NCBI RefSeq assembly: GCF_014191375.1
Contig: NZ_JACHWN010000010.1
Location: 62,001-126,000 of the forward strand
Direction of reading: 5' to 3'
DNA from: Mesorhizobium sp. RMAD-H1
GTDB lineage: Bacteria; Pseudomonadota; Alphaproteobacteria; Rhizobiales; Rhizobiaceae
DNA: 64,000 nt
In this document: in pieces, positions 4,169 through 64,000 of the stretch
Layout of the letters: each line of letters starts with the position of its first letter
How positions within the stretch are numbered: position 1 is the first letter of the stretch
Notes under the pieces: generated by a model
What the model saw: the letters and a program-made list of their open reading frames with translations, nothing else
The model's database searches: none
Told to the model about the DNA's origin: nothing
Translations under genes and position numbers: made by a program

Positions 4169-4822
4169 TCACAGGACCGCGGCGACGCCTTCGATCAGGG
4201 GCTGATAACGCACGAGCATCAGATCCTCGCGTTCGAACCGGCTGCCTATCTTTGCCAGACGGCAGACCACCTGCTGCCCGTCTCCCGGCCCGATCGGCGC
4301 GATCATCACGCCGTTGCTGGCCAGCAGATCGACGAAATGGCGTGGCAGGCTCTCGAAAGCCGGCCAGACGATGATCCGGTCGAACGGTCCGGCGCCCGGA
4401 GGGCCGTGCCGCCCATCGGCCTGCATGACGACGACATTCTCGATCTTCAGCGCCTGCAGCCGCTGCCGCGCCTGGTCGACAAGCGTCTTGTAGCGATCGA
4501 CCGTCGTGACGCGGCCACCGAGCCGGCCCATGATGCAGGCCGTATAGCCGGAGCCGGTGCCGATCTCCAGCACCCGGTGCCCCTCCTCGACATTGAGCGC
4601 CGAGAGGAGCCGGGCCTGATCGTCGAGCCCTTCGATATACTCGCCGCAGTCGAGCGGAATGGTGCGGTTCTTGTAGGCGACATCCGCCCACAGACCGTTG
4701 ACGAAGCCGCGCCGGGGCGTCGCCTCGATGGCGCTGAAAAGACGGGGGTCGTTCATCCCGCGCCCACGCATCCTGAGCACGAAGGCGGCGAAATCCTCCC
4801 GCTCCGACAATTTTGGCGTCAT
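4169..4822 (-). CDS. pcm: Protein-L-isoaspartate O-methyltransferase
   Basis: Repairs age-damaged proteins by SAM-dependent methylation of L-isoaspartyl residues. The 217-residue protein carries the PCMT pattern: the substrate loop preceding the SAM site ([12 protein letters not shown]), SAM motif [17 protein letters not shown] at about residues 83-98, and [14 protein letters not shown] after the strand that follows. The start is the ATG overlapping the surE stop by four bases, implying translational coupling. surE-pcm-nlpD is the classic order in proteobacteria (in E. coli followed by rpoS, which is absent here as expected for an alphaproteobacterium). Confidence 0.95.
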
Positions 4823-5589
4823 GGGGCTTGCGTACCCAGAACGTCGGCAAGAGCCGCCCGGCTCTTGTGCGCGGTCAGGTCGAGCTGCAGCGGCGTGACG
4901 GAAATGGCATCCGCCCGGATCGCCGCCACGTCGCTGTCGGCGGCGACATCCGCTTTGCCGCGGCCGAAGCGCAGCCAGAAATAGGGAAAGCCCCGTGCGT
5001 CCCGGCGCTCGTCGATCGAGGCCTCGTGCGAAAGCTTGCCCTGGACGGTCACACGCGTGCCCGTCACGGCATTCGGCGCGCAATTGGGGAAGTTGACGTT
5101 CAGGAGAACGTCTTTCGGCATGTCCGCCTTGATCAGCTGCCTGATGAGGTCGGGCGCGCATGTCTCCGCCGTCTCCCACGGCACGATGCGGTGGCCATCC
5201 TCGAACTCATATTCCTGGGAAAGCGCGATGGCGCGGATGCCCAGAAGCGTCCCCTCGATGGCGCCGGCCACCGTGCCGGAATAGGTCACGTCATCGGCGA
5301 TATTGGCGCCGGAATTGACGCCCGAGAGCACGAGGTCGGGCGGCTCGGGCAGGATTCTGCGCACGCCCATGATGACGCAGTCGGTCGGCGTGCCGCGCAG
5401 CGCATAATGACGGTCGTCGATCTTGCGCAGGCGCAGCGGCTCCGAAAGGGTCAGGGAATGCGCCAGTCCACTCTGGTCCGTTTCCGGTGCGACCACCCAG
5501 ATATCGTCGGAAAGCCGCCTTGCGATCCGCTCCAGAACCGCTAGCCCTTCCGCGTGGATCCCGTCGTCATTGGTCAGGAGAATGCGCAA
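4819..5589 (-). CDS. surE: 5'/3'-nucleotidase SurE
   Basis: Metal-dependent nucleoside monophosphate phosphatase. The 256-residue protein begins [16 protein letters not shown], the hallmark metal-binding TNDDG loop, followed by the [10 protein letters not shown] motif and [22 protein letters not shown], which form the active site. Length is normal. Overlaps pcm by 4 bp (ATGA) and begins 30 bp after the serS stop, so it sits inside the long leftward operon. Confidence 0.97.
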
Positions 5590-5619
5590 TCCCAGTTCCT
5601 TTCTGGCTTCACACCGCCT

Positions 5620-6903
5620 TCATTCCGGCTTTTCGATTTTGGTGAGACCGCCCATGTAAGGAAGAAGAGCTTCAGGAATGGTTACGCTGCCATCCTCTTC
5701 CTGATAATTTTCCAGGATCGCGATCAACGCCCGGCCGACCGCCACGCCGGAGCCGTTGAGCGTATGGACGAAGCGCGTCGCCTTCTCGCCTTCCGGGCGA
5801 TAGCGCGCGTTCATGCGGCGCGCCTGGAAATCACCGCAGACGGAGCAGCTCGAAATCTCGCGATAGGTGTTCTGCCCCGGCAGCCAGACCTCGATGTCAT
5901 AGGTCTTCTGCGCGCCGAAGCCCATGTCGCCGGTGCACAGCACCACGGTGCGGAACGGCAGGCCGAGGCGCTTCAGCACCTCTTCGGCGCAGGCGGTCAT
6001 CCGCTCATGCTCGGCGATCGAGCTCTCGGCATCGGTGATCGACACCATCTCGACCTTCATGAACTGGTGCTGGCGCAGCATGCCGCGCGTATCCCGCCCC
6101 GCCGAGCCTGCTTCCGAGCGGAAGCACGGCGTAAGCGCCGTCATGCGGATGGGTAGCTCTTTCAGATCAAGGATTTCCTCGCGCACCAGATTGGTGAGCG
6201 GCACCTCGGCGGTGGGAATGAGCCAGCGCCCGTCCGTGGTGCGGAACAGATCATCGGTGAATTTCGGCAATTGTCCCGTGCCGAACATGGCCGGATCGTT
6301 GACCAGCAACGGCGGCACGACCTCCATATACCCATGCTCAGTCGTATGCAGGTCGAGCATGAACTGGCCGAGCGCGCGTTCCAGCCGCGCGAGCTGGCTT
6401 TTCAGAACCGTGAAGCGGCTGCCTGAAAGCTTGGCGGCGCGCTCGAAATCCATGTAGCCCATGGCTTCGCCGATCTCGAAATGCTCCTTCGGCTGAAAGG
6501 CGAAATTGCGGATATTGCCGACGCGCCTCACCTCGACATTGTCCGCCTCGTCCTTGCCTTCCGGCACGTCGTCGAGCGGCAGGTTCGGGATGACGGCGAG
6601 CGCATCCGCCAGTTCCTTGTCGAGGCGGCGCTCCTCTTCCTCGGCAGTCTGCAGGAAGGTCTTGAGATCGGCGACCTCGGCCTTCAGCTTCTCGGCGGTG
6701 GCGCTGTCCTTCTCGGCCATCGCCTTGCCGATTTCCTTGGAGGCAGCATTGCGGCGCTCCTGCGCCTGCTGCACCCGGCCGACATGCTGGCGCCGCTTCT
6801 CATCAAGCGCGATCAGCCCGGAAGACAGGGGTTCCATGCCGCGTTTGGCAAGGGCGTCGTCGAACGCTTCAGGGTTTTCGCGTATCCATTTGATGTCAAG
6901 CAT
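5620..6903 (-). CDS. serS: Serine--tRNA ligase
   Basis: Class II aminoacyl-tRNA synthetase charging tRNA-Ser. The 427-residue protein has an N-terminal two-helix coiled-coil arm (about residues 30-110, rich in K/E/A), motif 2 ([19 protein letters not shown]), the SerRS element [14 protein letters not shown] and motif 3 ([16 protein letters not shown]). The start giving [12 protein letters not shown] matches the family; the frame is open 12 codons further upstream but that extension is not family-like. Placed between tatC and surE. Confidence 0.98.
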
Positions 6904-6990
6904 GAGATAGAGCCGTAAGTGGAGTGAAATTAATTGCATAACAATGCCGGCAGGCCGGCATCCGGGACGCTGGAGACAGCGGACGAAGGA

Positions 6991-7818
6991 TCAGGATGCG
7001 GAGGAGATATTGCCCGCCGAATTCTTCTCGGCTTCGGCGAGTGCCCGTTTCCGCTCGATCATTCGCGCCGTCCAGATGGAAATCTCGTAGAGAAGGATGG
7101 TCGGCAAGGCAAGGCCGATCTGGCTCACCGGATCAGGCGGGGTCAGCACCGCCGCCACCACGAAGGCGATGACGATGGCGTATTTGCGCTTTTCCTTCAG
7201 CGCCTCGGAGGAGAGGAGCCCTGCCCGCACCAGAAGCGAGGAGACGACGGGCAGCTGGAATACCAGGCCGAAAGCGAAGATCAGCGTCATGATCAGGCTG
7301 AGATATTCCGAAACCTTCGGCAGAAGCGATATCTGCACCTCGCCGGCCCCGCCCGTCTGCTGCATGGCGAGGAAGAACCACATCACCATCGGCGTGAAGA
7401 AGCCATAGACCAGCGCGCCGCCAAGAAGGAACAGGATCGGCGAAGCGACGAGAAACGGCAGGAACGCCATGCGCTCATGCTTGTAGAGCCCCGGCGCCAC
7501 GAATTTATAGATCTGGGAGGCAATCACGGGAAAGGCGAGCACCACGCCGCCGAACATGGCGACCTTCACCTGGGTGAAGAAGAATTCCTGCGGCGCGGTA
7601 TAGATGAGCTCGGCTTTCGAGCGGTCCATGCCGGCCCAGTCGAGCGCCCACTGATAGGGAATGACCAGGAAGTTGAAGAGCTGCTTGGCGAAGGCGAAGC
7701 AGAGCACGAAAGCGATGAAAAACGCCAGGATCGCCCAGATCAAGCGGCGGCGCAGCTCGATCAGGTGCTCGATCAGCGGTGCCGAGCTCTGCTCGATTTC
7801 ATCCTGTTCGCTGGTCAC
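6991..7818 (-). CDS. tatC: Sec-independent protein translocase subunit TatC
   Basis: Six-span inner-membrane receptor for twin-arginine signal peptides. The 275-residue protein has the N-terminal LIEHLIELRRRLIW region and the conserved KFVAPGLYKHER loop with the glutamate needed for signal recognition. Hydrophobic segments follow, and TPPDPVSQIGLALP precedes the last pair of helices. Its start overlaps the tatB stop by 4 bp. Third gene of a complete tatABC operon. Confidence 0.97.
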   Translation of the reverse strand: MTSEQDEIEQSSAPLIEHLIELRRRLIWAILAFFIAFVLCFAFAKQLFNFLVIPYQWALDWAGMDRSKAELIYTAPQEFFFTQVKVAMFGGVVLAFPVIASQIYKFVAPGLYKHERMAFLPFLVASPILFLLGGALVYGFFTPMVMWFFLAMQQTGGAGEVQISLLPKVSEYLSLIMTLIFAFGLVFQLPVVSSLLVRAGLLSSEALKEKRKYAIVIAFVVAAVLTPPDPVSQIGLALPTILLYEISIWTARMIERKRALAEAEKNSAGNISSAS

Positions 7819-37577: not shown

Positions 37578-39110
37578 TTAGGCACTTTTTACTTGAATAG
37601 AATTTTTTCTGAGCACGCTCTTATAAACGCGCTCATAGGCATCCAACATCTGGTCATATGAATTGAGCCTAGAAAGCTGCGCCCGTGCAGCAAATCCAAG
37701 CTGGATACGCTTTTCACGATCATCACATAACAAGCGAATTTTCCCCGATAGATCAGCGATCTGCTCCTCTTCATAAAACAGACCACTTATCCCGTTGACT
37801 AGCTGTTCCTTAACGCCAAAACACGGCGTAGAAATGATCGCCAGTCCAAAACCCATCGCCTCTAGAATTACACGGGGATAACTCTCAATCCGTGATGTCA
37901 AAACAAAGATATCCGAAGCGAGGTAGAGTTCAGCCACCCTCCGACGTTCTTCCTCGGATGTCGTTTCATCAAGCGCAATTATCCTGACGCCCTCTTTGCT
38001 CAAGGCCTCCAAGCGCTGCTTGATGTAATCTGAATATTGGGTGGGACTAAAGCCAACCATAGCTATAACGAGGCGTCTTTTTATATGATCATCCAATATT
38101 TGGACTGCATCAACGATGTCCTGCTGCCCCTTTCTCTTATTTACCGTTCCGACATTCAGAAGCACGATGTCATCTTCACGGAGACCAAGAGAGGATCGGA
38201 CGGTTGGCCTATTTGTCGCGTAAACATGCCTCATTAAACGCCCTAGATCGATCCCATTGTGAATCGTGACACTTTCAACAACTCCGCTTAGCTTGTCGAC
38301 CCATTTCTGACGAGTCGCCTCAGCGACAAACACAACGGTGGATGCCTTTGCAAATGCGGAATATGCTAATCGGCGCAGGTCGGGCGGCAGTTTGTCGTAA
38401 TAGCTGTCAGGATCTTCACTCTCTCGCACATTCCAGATGACGGGGATTCCAGCCATCGCAGCCGCTAGAACGCAATGATAATTTGGAAGCGTATTGACAT
38501 GCACAAGTTTTGCGTTGGCATCTTTGTAGTGTTTCGAAAGGGTCTGAAGAAACGAATTGCGGCGATCCGCATTCAACAGAAACTCAGACGGAATTCCATG
38601 AAAGACACACTCAATATCTGACGCAGCATAACTTTGCTGAAGAGGTCCTCCCCTCGGTGCCATGAGCACCGGCTCGAAATTTCCTCGTCTCATTATGCCA
38701 CTGGCAATCTCGAAGAGACTATTGGGCGCACCTTGGAGTTTCAGGTTATGGCTTTCGTATACTATCGCATCACGGCTTGGTCTTTCGGATCTCTTTCTGG
38801 CCAGCGGGATGACGCTAGTATCTGATGCTTTTGGTTCAACAGGGAAAGCCTGTCGCCCCTCAAATCTTCCCCACCGTATATAGTGAACAAGGGGATTTGA
38901 GCCAGCAATTTCGACATCCGGATTGCATTCTAGATAACGAGTGGTACTGAACTTCGGCGATGGATCTCTTTTCAGCCGTGCGCCTACCCAGAGATAATGC
39001 TCTATTGCGCACATGCCCAAAATTTCCACATCTTGGTAGCGCGCCCGATACCAGTCTTCATCAAAAAGGCCTGATCCGCGCAGAATTTGGATATCTGCGA
39101 GTTTCACCAT
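37578..39110 (-). CDS. GT4-family glycosyltransferase with N-terminal sugar-enzyme repeats (cassette)
   Basis: 510 residues. The first 90 residues hold two imperfect repeats with FDEDWYRARYQDVEILGMCA and STTRYLECNPDVEIAGSNPL, each followed by a (V/I)xWGxxxGR-like turn. These repeats are found at the N-termini of rhizobial glycosyltransferases. The GT-B part has VVFVAEATRQKWVDKL, SVTIHNGIDLGRLM, LLNVGTVNKRKGQQDIVDA and the C-terminal ESYPRVILEAMGFGLAIIST with the catalytic Glu. First gene of the cassette; its start lies 40 bp from the opposing small gene. Confidence 0.9.
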   Translation of the reverse strand: MVKLADIQILRGSGLFDEDWYRARYQDVEILGMCAIEHYLWVGARLKRDPSPKFSTTRYLECNPDVEIAGSNPLVHYIRWGRFEGRQAFPVEPKASDTSVIPLARKRSERPSRDAIVYESHNLKLQGAPNSLFEIASGIMRRGNFEPVLMAPRGGPLQQSYAASDIECVFHGIPSEFLLNADRRNSFLQTLSKHYKDANAKLVHVNTLPNYHCVLAAAMAGIPVIWNVRESEDPDSYYDKLPPDLRRLAYSAFAKASTVVFVAEATRQKWVDKLSGVVESVTIHNGIDLGRLMRHVYATNRPTVRSSLGLREDDIVLLNVGTVNKRKGQQDIVDAVQILDDHIKRRLVIAMVGFSPTQYSDYIKQRLEALSKEGVRIIALDETTSEEERRRVAELYLASDIFVLTSRIESYPRVILEAMGFGLAIISTPCFGVKEQLVNGISGLFYEEEQIADLSGKIRLLCDDREKRIQLGFAARAQLSRLNSYDQMLDAYERVYKSVLRKNSIQVKSA

Positions 39111-58759: not shown

Positions 58760-59413
58760 TCACAAAGGTTGGAGGATTGCAAGAGGCATCAGAGCGGGCG
58801 TGACGCCACCGAGGAAGTTGATTGCCACCACCGCGCTCCCCTTCCCCTTCTCGCCGCCGGATACGATCTCACCCTTCGCGCCTGCAAATATGCCATCCTT
58901 GATGCGCACCTTCATGCCGCGCCTGAACACTGATTGCGGCACCTCGTAATCGAAGTGTCCGCTATCGGCTTTCTCTTTGAATTCGCTTACTTTGTCAGCC
59001 GCAATAAGGTACGGCGTTTCATAGCCGCCAAGGATGCCGGCAACGTGCTCAAAGCCAAGGAGAGCGGCGGCGCACTCGTTCGAGATCACGCATCGGGCGA
59101 AGATGTAGCCGACGAAAACAGGTTCCTTCTTCGCAGGTATTTCACGCCCCTGACGCCGCAACTTTTTCCCCAGCTTCATGGGGACAAGCGTCTCGATGCC
59201 AGCTGCCACAAGCGCCTCCTCCACCACCACTTCCCGTCCCGTCGCGACTCGAAGCACCAACCACGGCGCTGATTCGTCCGCACGCTGCGCCGCCTGCTCG
59301 ATCAGCTTGCGCCGACGGCGGCACTCGGCAATCGCCCTGTCGCTCGCCGCGTAGGCCCGCGTCAGGTCGATCGCCTCTGCCGCTTCAACCTGCCTTCCGT
59401 TGACCGCCATCAT
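58760..59413 (-). CDS. NusG-like transcription elongation/antitermination protein
   Basis: 217 residues. After a 50-residue helical extension comes an NGN domain (APWLVLRVATGREVVVEEAL, GIETLVPMKLGKKLRRQG, KKEPVFVGYIFARCVI) and a C-terminal KOW domain (VFRRGMKVRIKDGIFAGAKG, EIVSGGEKGKGSAVVAIN). NusG specialised paralogues such as RfaH and LoaP load onto RNA polymerase at selected operons. It is the last early gene before HNH-terminase, so a late-operon antiterminator role is likely. Starts at ATG 59413 behind GAGGGA; overlaps the replication gene end by 29 bp. Confidence 0.85.
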   Translation of the reverse strand: MMAVNGRQVEAAEAIDLTRAYAASDRAIAECRRRRKLIEQAAQRADESAPWLVLRVATGREVVVEEALVAAGIETLVPMKLGKKLRRQGREIPAKKEPVFVGYIFARCVISNECAAALLGFEHVAGILGGYETPYLIAADKVSEFKEKADSGHFDYEVPQSVFRRGMKVRIKDGIFAGAKGEIVSGGEKGKGSAVVAINFLGGVTPALMPLAILQPL

Positions 59414-60581
59414 TTCCAATCCCTCGTAACGCCGCCTCGAAATCGCTCAGTGCATCCGGCCCTCCGGCCGGCAGATAAACCCATTGCTGCCTGCCGGGAT
59501 CAGGCATCCACGGCCATCCGCGGCGCTCGTGCTCCGCCTGCCAAGCCCGCCAAAGCTCGCCGCCGACGCGCACTACTTCGAATGCATCCGCCAACGGCTG
59601 CAGGCTTGAGGAGACCGCCACGCCCTGCCCCGTCGCCGCCCTGTTGAACATCTCGCTTACAGCGGGCCAGCAGCTGCGCGCCTGTTTCTCCAGCAACAAC
59701 GCTCCCTTGTCCGCCGTGCCGTCGTCGACCATCCGCTGCTCGAATGCAGTCAGAGGTGGGCATGGCCGCTGCACGCCGGAAAGCAAGCGCTGATAGACCC
59801 TTGCACCCCAGAGCTTGCCGAAGGGCGCGGCATCGAGGAATTCGGGTTTCGCATCCGCCTCCTGCCTGGGCGGCAATCTCTCCCAGCGCTTTTCCCGCAG
59901 ATACACCGCAAACGCGCAGTGCTTGGCGCGACCGTCGCCCTTGCGGGCAGCGATGTAATCGGCGATCCGGTCAGCCGCCTGGGCGCGTTCCTCGTCGGTC
60001 AGCGAGAACCATTCCTTGCGGGCTTCCGCCTCGCTGTCGCTGACATAGGTCGGCCATTTCGGGAACGCCCGCTTGAAGGCACGGTCGATCGCCTTCGCAT
60101 CGGCTCCGGATATCGTCCCTTCACCATCCCGAGCATCAGCGCGGTCGCGCGCTTCTCTCTCAACCGGTTCCATTGGTGGTTCTTCTGACGGTTCAGCCTT
60201 ATAGGGGGGTGTGGGGGGAACGGCACCATCTGCCGGTGGTTGCGGCACCATTTGCCGGTGGTCCCGGCGCGAGATGCCGGTGGCACCACCGGCAGATTTT
60301 GCCGGTGGTTGCGCGCCCATGGAAAGGCGGATTTCATCAGCCTGAAATGTGCCACCAGGCGTCCGCCGGCGCGCGACTCTGAGCAGGCCGGCCTCCTCCA
60401 GTTTCCGCTTCCACTCGCGAATGGCCCGCTCAGACAGCTCGGTATCCTGCATCAGCCGCGCATCGGACGGCCAGCAGCGGCCGTGCTCATCGGCATAGTT
60501 CGCGAGCGCGTAAAGTAGCAACTTGCCGCTCGCGCCGCCCGCCTCGACAGTCGCCACCCATGCGGTTGCCTGCCAGCTCAT
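59385..60581 (-). CDS. Replication initiator-like protein (lambda O-type, HTH_36)
   Basis: 398 residues. N-terminal winged helix (SGKLLLYALANYADEHGRCW, RLMQDTELSERAIREWKRKL, EEAGLLRVARRRTPGGTF) of the HTH_36 type common at the front of phage replication proteins. A Pro-rich low-complexity linker (about residues 85-140) contains the iterons described separately; the C-terminal half has DAKAIDRAFKRAFPKWPTYV and SDSEAEARKEWFSLTDEERA. Initiator with origin inside its own gene parallels lambda O. Overlaps the GNAT-like gene stop by 4 bp. Confidence 0.83.
   Translation of the reverse strand: MSWQATAWVATVEAGGASGKLLLYALANYADEHGRCWPSDARLMQDTELSERAIREWKRKLEEAGLLRVARRRTPGGTFQADEIRLSMGAQPPAKSAGGATGISRRDHRQMVPQPPADGAVPPTPPYKAEPSEEPPMEPVEREARDRADARDGEGTISGADAKAIDRAFKRAFPKWPTYVSDSEAEARKEWFSLTDEERAQAADRIADYIAARKGDGRAKHCAFAVYLREKRWERLPPRQEADAKPEFLDAAPFGKLWGARVYQRLLSGVQRPCPPLTAFEQRMVDDGTADKGALLLEKQARSCWPAVSEMFNRAATGQGVAVSSSLQPLADAFEVVRVGGELWRAWQAEHERRGWPWMPDPGRQQWVYLPAGGPDALSDFEAALRGIGNDGGQRKAG
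60231..60309. repeat. Iteron cluster, candidate prophage replication origin
   Basis: TGCCGGTGGT occurs at 60231-60240, 60253-60262, 60275-60284 (last base C) and 60300-60309, with one inverted copy at 60285-60294. Start-to-start distances are 22, 22 and 25 bp; the first two units extend to a shared GGCACCATYTGCCGGTGGT. Because 22 is not a multiple of 3, the repeats fall in different codon phases of the O-like gene. They are therefore DNA-level repeats rather than a protein repeat. Confidence 0.75.
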
Positions 60582-62934: not shown

Positions 62935-63232
62935 TGGTAACCTCCGAAGGCTCCTGCCCGCCATGTGTCAGCGTCACGCCGTAGTCGGCCGGCACAATGC
63001 CGAGGGCGCCCCAGATGCGAACACGATCATCAGGATTGTTGAGCCGCCCCATCCAGGCGAGATCGAGCGCGCCATGCGTCACCCGCGCCCGCTTGCGGAT
63101 CTCCGCCTTGACGGCGCGCACTATCGGCGCACGCCGATCCGGCGTACCGACAGCGACAATCCGAAACTCGGCGCGGGCTCTCAGGAAGAGCCGGAGCATG
63201 GCGGGCGAAAATGAGGGGCGAGAGATGTTCAC
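62927..63232 (-). CDS. Hypothetical early protein
   Basis: 101 residues: SRPSFSPAMLRLFLRARAEF, APIVRAVKAEIRKRARVTHG, ALDLAWMGRLNNPDDRVRIW and GALGIVPADYGVTLT. A basic, helical small protein with no recognised domain. Starts 7 bp after the end of the sliding-clamp gene. Confidence 0.65.
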   Translation of the reverse strand: MNISRPSFSPAMLRLFLRARAEFRIVAVGTPDRRAPIVRAVKAEIRKRARVTHGALDLAWMGRLNNPDDRVRIWGALGIVPADYGVTLTHGGQEPSEVTNG

Positions 63233-63239
63233 GATCGCC

Positions 63240-64000
63240 TCACGCGCGCATCGGCATCTGGACGATGCGAAGAGGGTCGTTTTCCGACGTGATGACGGTA
63301 GGCGAGCCGTTGAAGGCTTCTGGGTGCGCGGTCGCGAATATAACCGTTTCGCCGGTCAGGGCTGATAGAGCTGAGATCAGATAGCGGGCATTGTATCCGA
63401 CCTCGAACGGCCCTGCAAAAGCATGCCCCCCCCCAGCTGATATGCTCGACGGCACTACGCTCCGATTGAGCGATTTCAAGCCGCAGTCCTTCTGATGTGC
63501 CGATGAGCTTGACGCCTTCGCGCCATCCCTCGCTAAAGGAGCGTAGCCGCCTCAGGACGCGAAGCAGCCCCGCGCGATCCACCGCAAATACCGGCCTAGC
63601 ATCGACCGGGATCACGCGATTGACCTCGGGATAGGCGCCATCGATCAGCTTGGCCGACATCTGATGACCTGGCAGATAAAACCGCGCACGGCGCTGTTCC
63701 AAATCGATCGCTATCGATATCGGCTCGTGCCCGCGCATGACAAGGTGATTGACGGCGCCGATAGGAATGATCGCGCCGAACCAGTCAGCCGGCACGCCGT
63801 CGATCGGCATCATCGCCAGCCGGTGACCATCGGTCGCGACCAGCATGGGCCTTCCATCGCGGCCGTTCACGATGGCCGCGCCATTGAGATAATAGCGGAT
63901 CTCCTCCGTCGAAATCGCGAAGCGGATTCGCCTCATCGCGGCGACAAACCCGAGATTTCCGGTTTCGGCGCGCACTCCCTTCACCGTTCCGAAGTCCGGA
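63240..64000 (-). pseudogene. dnaN: Sliding-clamp (DnaN) homologue, frameshifted at a G9 run; 5' end outside window
   Basis: Domains 2 and 3 of a DNA polymerase III beta clamp. The reading from the right edge gives RIRFAISTEEIRYYLNGAAI, PMLVATDGHRLAMMPIDG, SAKLIDGAYPEVNRVIPVDA and a final SAVEHISWGG. A +1 shift in a run of nine G (63426-63434 on the minus strand) then moves translation to a wrong frame that ends at 63229. The right frame continues HAFAGPFEVGYNARYLISAL, SALTGETVIFATAHPEAFNG and ends in the clamp-type IVQMPMRA. With eight G the two parts join as WGGHAFAG. The intact protein is a phage-encoded clamp; whether the extra G is real is open. Confidence 0.8.

Follow-up and report, generated by a model that had tools for sequence, protein, structure and literature searches.

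The window, a 64,000-nucleotide stretch of Mesorhizobium sp. RMAD-H1 DNA, contains a gene for a 398-aa protein at 59385-60581, in which a Pfam profile search identified an HTH_36 domain (E 2.5e-11). This protein matched phrog_270, 'replication initiation protein' (E 1.9e-43), and also phrog_391, 'replication initiation O-like' (E 9.7e-15). In the AlphaFold2 model, 10-residue means of pLDDT ranged from 86 to 95 over residues 1-70 and from 76 to 98 over residues 161-390, and fell below 50 at residues 93-117, 124-134, and 136-155, all in the linker. The gene, its protein domains, and its downstream neighbor are as follows.

59385..60581, minus strand: initiator gene, 398 aa, with HTH_36 and phrog_270 matches
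Residues 1-90 of the 398-aa initiator: winged-helix N-terminal domain (AlphaFold2 model and HTH_36)
About residues 91-157 of the initiator: disordered linker (AlphaFold2 model)
About residues 158-391 of the initiator: folded C-terminal domain (AlphaFold2 model)
58760..59419, minus strand: NusG-family antiterminator, the next gene downstream (PF02357, phrog_6386)

The C-terminal domain was modelled confidently (mean pLDDT 91). Searches with it returned no Pfam family at E<=1, no PDB chain by sequence at E<=5, and no Foldseek match at a meaningful level, while the corresponding domains of relatives gave stray weak matches only. Because no useful fold match emerged, any role that we give this domain is a guess. 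Shorter relatives also exist (L043, L050, L051, and L108) in which the C-terminal domain is present and no HTH was seen; the stretches fetched for these four held no GAGAGAG and no clear array.

The order of initiator and NusG gene was the same in phi2LM21, phi3LM21, Rivra, and PPF1. No match to a helicase or loader (P-like or DnaB) was found among the proteins scanned (two sets of 10). Upstream of the initiator lies a beta-clamp-like DNA polymerase processivity factor, at 63229-63984 in the window and at 4230-5333 in the locus L279 (phrog_947, E 7.9e-38). The early region of L279 additionally has two neighboring DNA methyltransferase genes at 5318-7593 (phrog_56 and phrog_359), and methyltransferase genes near replication genes are described for sinorhizobial prophages in PMC5537653.

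Within the linker-encoding part of the gene we located a repeat array spanning 60231-60309. Specifically, on the plus strand TGCCGGTGGT was present in exact form at 60231, 60253, and 60300, a copy with one mismatch to it (TGCCGGTGGC) began at 60275, and a further copy, exact but inverted, began at 60285. The preliminary description had placed four direct copies and one inverted copy, the former spaced 22, 22, and 25 bp, inside the linker of an HTH_36-type initiator gene; these spacings, the copy number (three direct copies exact and a fourth nearly so, one exact inverted copy), and the domain assignment were all borne out. Read along the coding strand, copies of ACCACCGGCA start at 60309, 60284 (one mismatch), 60262, and 60240, and the inverted copy occupies 60294-60285. 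The array and the elements that follow it are listed in this direction.

60132..60311, minus strand: whole putative origin, coding for the disordered linker (delimited by codon freezing; far edge near 60132 from the 10-codon profile)
60300..60309, minus strand: iteron 1, ACCACCGGCA on the coding strand, exact
60285..60294, plus strand: inverted copy, ACCACCGGCA on the plus strand; its 9-bp core TGCCGGTGG (coding strand) is invariant in the window and three relatives, L001, L002, and L003
60275..60284, minus strand: iteron 2, GCCACCGGCA, one mismatch
60253..60262, minus strand: iteron 3, ACCACCGGCA, exact
60231..60240, minus strand: iteron 4, ACCACCGGCA, exact
60204..60218, minus strand: C-tract CCCCCCACACCCCCC (C6-ACA-C6), identical in the window, L001, L002, and L003; codon identity 29/29 in 60221-60192
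60162..60204, minus strand: putative unwinding element, in which GAACC occurs three times at 12-bp intervals (starting at 60194, 60182, and 60170)
60155..60161, minus strand: GA box GAGAGAG, lying 31-121 nt beyond the last copy in 50/70 array genes, its complement in 0/70
60140..60154, minus strand: GC-rich run after the GA box; GAGAGAG.{0,6}GCGCG in 41/70 array genes vs. 0-2 in 10 synonymous permutations

The array stands out at every scale at which it was compared. All three-copy chains of 11-mers spaced 20-25 bp that scored at least 26/33 in the 64-kb window (14 overlapping rows) fell inside it. Its five copies (at most one mismatch, both strands) lie within 100 nt, whereas the most seen in 1000 permutations of the gene's synonymous codons was 3. 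Across the genome (5.14 Mb) the exact 10-mer had 52 occurrences, four of them in the array, vs. 21 for the control read backwards. No DnaA box was found near the array in the window. The C6-ACA-C6 tract sits between the last iteron and the GAACC repeats; the G-tracts remarked on in the preliminary description are this tract, read at 60218-60204 on the coding strand. That description had also reported no obvious AT-rich stretch beside the array, which did not hold up, as the segment at 60204-60162 directly adjoins the array and has the lowest duplex stability among the 1155 43-bp windows of the initiator gene. Neither the GAACC repeats within this segment nor the GAGAGAG and GC block at 60161-60140 figured in it.

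We compared codons at identical residues with those of L001, L002, and L003, which comprise two Mesorhizobium MAGs and a Nitratireductor. Between 60311 and 60141 the codons were identical at 39/43, 36/43, and 40/42 positions, respectively (84-95%), as against 85/155, 73/143, and 65/138 (47-55%) in the rest of the gene (Fisher 6e-6, 1e-4, and 3e-9). In blocks of 10 codons the frozen stretch ran from about 60311 to about 60132; codon identity was also raised in the first 20 codons (0.70-0.72) and in the block overlapping the next gene (59441-59412, 0.83). Iterons 1, 3, and 4, nine bases each of iteron 2 and the inverted copy, and the C-tract were invariant in the DNA alignment with these relatives. 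Because synonymous codons are frozen, the comparison demonstrates, at the level of sequence, selection on DNA in the linker-encoding segment, as had been proposed for the repeats. The linker codons can serve as DNA sites, which would leave the linker itself free to be disordered.

To place the array in a broader context we pooled 121 ORFs, namely that of the window, 20 loci from two collections, 29 + 60 loci from genomes of the bacterial family of the window, and 11 named phage or plasmid records, and reduced them to 104 by removing near-duplicates at 85% identity. A three-copy array spaced 20-25 bp was present at p<0.01 vs. synonymous permutation in 67 of these 104 non-redundant related ORFs. 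The set used for anatomy was defined by p1<0.02, p2<0.02, and a score of at least 25, cut-offs that were picked after the p-value results; 71 genes passed, and removal of L118, a false array that belongs to a class with 15-bp repeats, left 70. Thus, 70/104 ORFs carried a family-specific array spaced 20-25 bp. The 140 spacings in these arrays were 20 (3), 21 (17), 22 (45), 23 (65), 24 (8), and 25 bp (2), and an inverted half followed the last copy in 43/70 genes (null mean 16.4, maximum 21). The iteron sequences vary widely among relatives and include CCACCGGCAAAT, GAGTCCAGAA, GGGTGACA, CCCCTGCCG, AAGGTGGTGGA, and ACCATGCCGCA, among others.

The remaining 34 ORFs comprised 12 of the 15-bp class, two whose arrays lie upstream of a wrongly chosen start (L042 and L095), and 20 that belonged to neither array class by the criteria used. 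Some of these 20 had no HTH and some were weak (L018, L099, L124, and L126), and one, L089, has an array outside the chosen ORF. The 12 proteins of the 15-bp class, including those of phi3LM21 and Rivra, are associated with candidate CCGNCGNCGG-type repeats spaced 15 bp, for which 10/12 reached p<=0.04 against the synonymous null (L039, p=0.20; L109, p=0.08), and GAGAG(A/G)G was present in 8/12 of their genes. Conservation of the array plan among relatives, a comparison called for in the preliminary description, is seen in 70/104 ORFs plus the 12 with candidate 15-bp repeats. A class-level sample from outside the bacterial family of the window had an array at p=0.01 in 7/23 ORFs. In L275, one of these seven, GAGAGAG lies about 50 nt past the array as an arm of a hairpin-like repeat, AACTCTCC...GGAGAGAGTT. 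We also observed sequences resembling DnaA boxes (at most one mismatch) 117-279 nt past the end of the initiator gene (34 rows, 27/34 in one frame); they were absent in the window and are probably a coding coincidence.

Beyond the array, the relatives share further structure. At 10-55 nt past the last copy, A+T exceeded that of the gene by 0.12-0.16 (n=71 genes), and this excess was accompanied by rare AT-ending codons, with a shift in codon use in the 90 nt past the array (AGA 0.29 vs. 0.03, TTA 0.21 vs. 0.02, and CCG 0.17 vs. 0.55; n=71). Short repeats in direct orientation recur along the stretch, commonly (G/T)AACC at 12-bp intervals, the interval being 14 bp in the CCCCTGCC class. Repeat pairs 12 or 14 bp apart were found in 43/70 genes, in all three codon positions, vs. 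a null mean of 10.7 (maximum 13 in 20); pairs 13 bp apart were also common (18). GAGAGAG followed the array in 50/70 genes (null mean 3.2, maximum 7 in 20 permutations), distributed 34/8/8 over the frames of these 50 genes, and of its 83 occurrences (overlaps counted) in 81,030 bp of array genes, 82 fell in the 90-bp stretch examined. The box is strand-specific within that stretch, as seen from its complement.

A search independent of the iteron was made by scanning viral_contigs for GAACC-N7-GAACC-N6..36-GAGAGAG, a pattern that matched at least 120 stretches. An ORF with the initiator profile was present at 34 of the 80 matches analysed (of at least 120), and an array lay upstream at p<=0.05 in 33 of these 34 vs. 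5 of the other 46. Array scores of at least 27 were reached by 19/80 analysed matches and by 0/266 control segments, and in an ORF-only check of 120 matches (of at least 120), 54 lay in an initiator ORF. Seven of the 34 initiator matches were at least 85% identical to members of the pooled set that gave the pattern; of the 18 that were both new and non-redundant, 17 had arrays. The scan is a test of co-occurrence within related initiators and not of an independent lineage, and because 46/80 matches lie elsewhere, the GAACC/GAGAGAG pattern alone is not specific.

We next considered how the DNA elements vary with the protein domains, using 58 of the 70 array genes. Iteron similarity followed the N-terminal domain (partial Spearman 0.33, 0/500 permutations, n=58), and its correlation with the C-terminal domain was 0.08 (35/500, n=58). 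Pairs with related N-termini and unrelated C-termini had an iteron similarity of 11.1 (91 pairs), whereas pairs with related C-termini and unrelated N-termini had 2.4 (42 pairs), against a background of 2.3. Co-variation of repeat and HTH, suggested in the preliminary description as a point for comparison, is thus seen, in that iteron sequence follows the HTH-bearing domain; since the two adjoin, part of this correlation could be linkage, and physical linkage may contribute to it. The unwinding stretch likewise tracked the N-terminus (0.56, 0/300) and not the C-terminus (0.01, 131/300). For the GA/GC stretch, the partial correlation was 0.26 with the C-terminus (1/300) and 0.12 with the N-terminus (6/300), a lean that is only modest because raw pair-group means do not show it (shared N-terminus 7.9, shared C-terminus 6.1, background 2.6). 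GAGAGAG itself was present in 50/60 array genes with a window-type C-terminal domain, being absent in the other 10, vs. 0/10 with another C-terminal domain (Fisher 4.7e-7). This association would be accounted for by recombination with a boundary close to the GA box.

Taken together, we consider it very probable that 60132-60311 is a theta replication origin of the prophage, located inside its own initiator gene in the manner of lambda O. The lambda-O-like prophage origin proposed in the preliminary description is supported by the array plan of relatives, the co-variation of iteron and N-terminal domain, the codon freezing, and the phrog_270 match. The initiator protein most likely recognizes the iterons in its own gene. 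In such a scheme, the N-terminal winged helix would bind the four iterons, whose spacing of about two helical turns would allow the proteins to stack on one face; the bound array would bend the DNA and open the adjacent stretch of 12-bp GAACC repeats, a step suggested by duplex instability and conservation. More speculatively, the C-terminal domain, acting with the GAGAGAG/GC block that borders the opened stretch on its far side, might recruit the host replicative helicase or primase, a proposal prompted by the association between box and domain and by the lack of a helicase or loader match among the proteins scanned. A fuller version, which we regard as possible but doubtful, is a two-part origin code in rhizobial prophages. 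One part would be a movable cassette of winged helix, iterons, and unwinding repeats, and the other a GAGAGAG/GC block bound by the C-terminal domain, placing host helicase or primase without a phage loader. If true, the block would constitute a new kind of helicase-loading site.

HTH proteins frequently bind arrays to repress, and in iteron plasmids autoregulation and origin function coexist. The repeats might accordingly be operators for autoregulation by the initiator, or sites for another phage repressor, with no origin at this place; helical spacing on one face would fit operators too. We consider this improbable, as it accounts neither for the 12/14-bp repeats of low duplex stability and the GA/GC block, which keep a similar distance past the array, nor for the phrog_270 match and the like behavior of lambda O and P22 gp18. 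Less probable still is that ribosomes bind internally at the GA box to make an isoform consisting of the C-terminal domain, a reading for which the purine-rich character of the box and the existence of shorter proteins with that domain alone (L043 and L050) could be cited, since an in-frame start codon follows 3-15 nt after the box in just 3/50 GA-box genes and in the window there is none. Finally, a by-product of a low-complexity linker or of recent slippage, with no function in DNA, might be read from the disordered, Pro-rich linker, but this is scarcely credible and largely refuted at the sequence level by the synonymous permutations, by the retention of a single codon phase in just 8/70 arrays, and by synonymous codons being most frozen in 60311-60141.

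The origin reading has close precedents. In lambda gene O and P22 gene 18, as in the window, iterons lie mid-gene in the initiator, a weak duplex follows directly downstream, and the gene belongs to an early operon. Both were picked by the same array detector (p=0.005 each), with iterons in the lambda record at 39034, 39054, 39078, and 39101 (spacing 20/24/23). In the A-rich stretch of P22 (L128, 1830-2040) a 14-bp direct repeat, ACAAAAGACAATAT/ACAAAAGACAATAA, was seen by eye. The window differs from both phages in its iteron sequences and in having 12-bp GAACC repeats and a GA/GC block in place of an A-rich tract. Specificity swaps among lambdoid O proteins were reportedly made by Furth and co-workers. 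PMC5043065 describes how, on supercoiled DNA, the binding of lambda O to the iterons leads to opening of the adjoining A+T-rich region of 40 bp, with P bringing in DnaB; it also states that the iterons of plasmids generally keep helical phase. Unlike lambda, the window had no P-like loader or DnaB match among the proteins scanned, and the searches made found no relation between its C-terminal domain and lambda O.

Three further systems bear comparison. The winged-helix N-terminus of pSK41 Rep (RepA_N) binds four boxes inside rep, its linker is encoded by the origin, and its C-terminal domain contacts host DnaG (PMC5703833); winged helix, boxes inside the initiator gene, and origin-encoded linker are shared with the window. 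For the window model, Foldseek ranked first the Rep-DNA complex 5kbj, which matched at the N-terminus only (E 0.06) and which other winged helices equal or beat by VIA-align, and the RepA_N domain PF06970 was not among the Pfam matches listed (25 of 26 families in one of the listings). In R. etli p42d, a rhizobial replicon, oriV is contained in repC, its initiator gene, a placement like that proposed for the window, and silent GC-raising mutations abolished replication; in contrast to the window, repC has no iterons and a much larger AT-rich region (PMC3155836). The RP-C N-terminal profile scored 13.5 bits with the window protein, below the cut-off of 24.4, and matched weakly at the N-terminus in 15/25 relatives. 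The 'putative replication initiation protein' of phi2LM21 and phi3LM21 is homologous to that of the window and has the same NusG neighbor; the words 'iteron' and 'origin' are absent from the paper on these phages (PMC5537653). Unlike the window array, phi3LM21 belongs to the 15-bp class, while phi2LM21 lies outside that class and was left out of array counts as a near-duplicate.

To our knowledge, few phage origins have been mapped. Because many related viruses keep the layout and swap the recognition sequence, the probable start site can be located from sequence alone, and the array, the weak stretch built of repeats, and the GA box would allow origins to be predicted at base level in a large group of prophages. 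Recombinants of N- and C-termini that occur naturally are ready test pairs for initiator-iteron specificity, and the confidently modelled C-terminal domain may shed light on the way in which the host replisome is captured by these phages. In the open-licence literature searched, no description of the GA box and modular code was found. As lambda, P22, pSK41 rep, and R. etli repC share it, the principle of an intragenic origin is already known; the present locus and its relatives add to that design a GA box and a modular pattern, besides sequences of their own.
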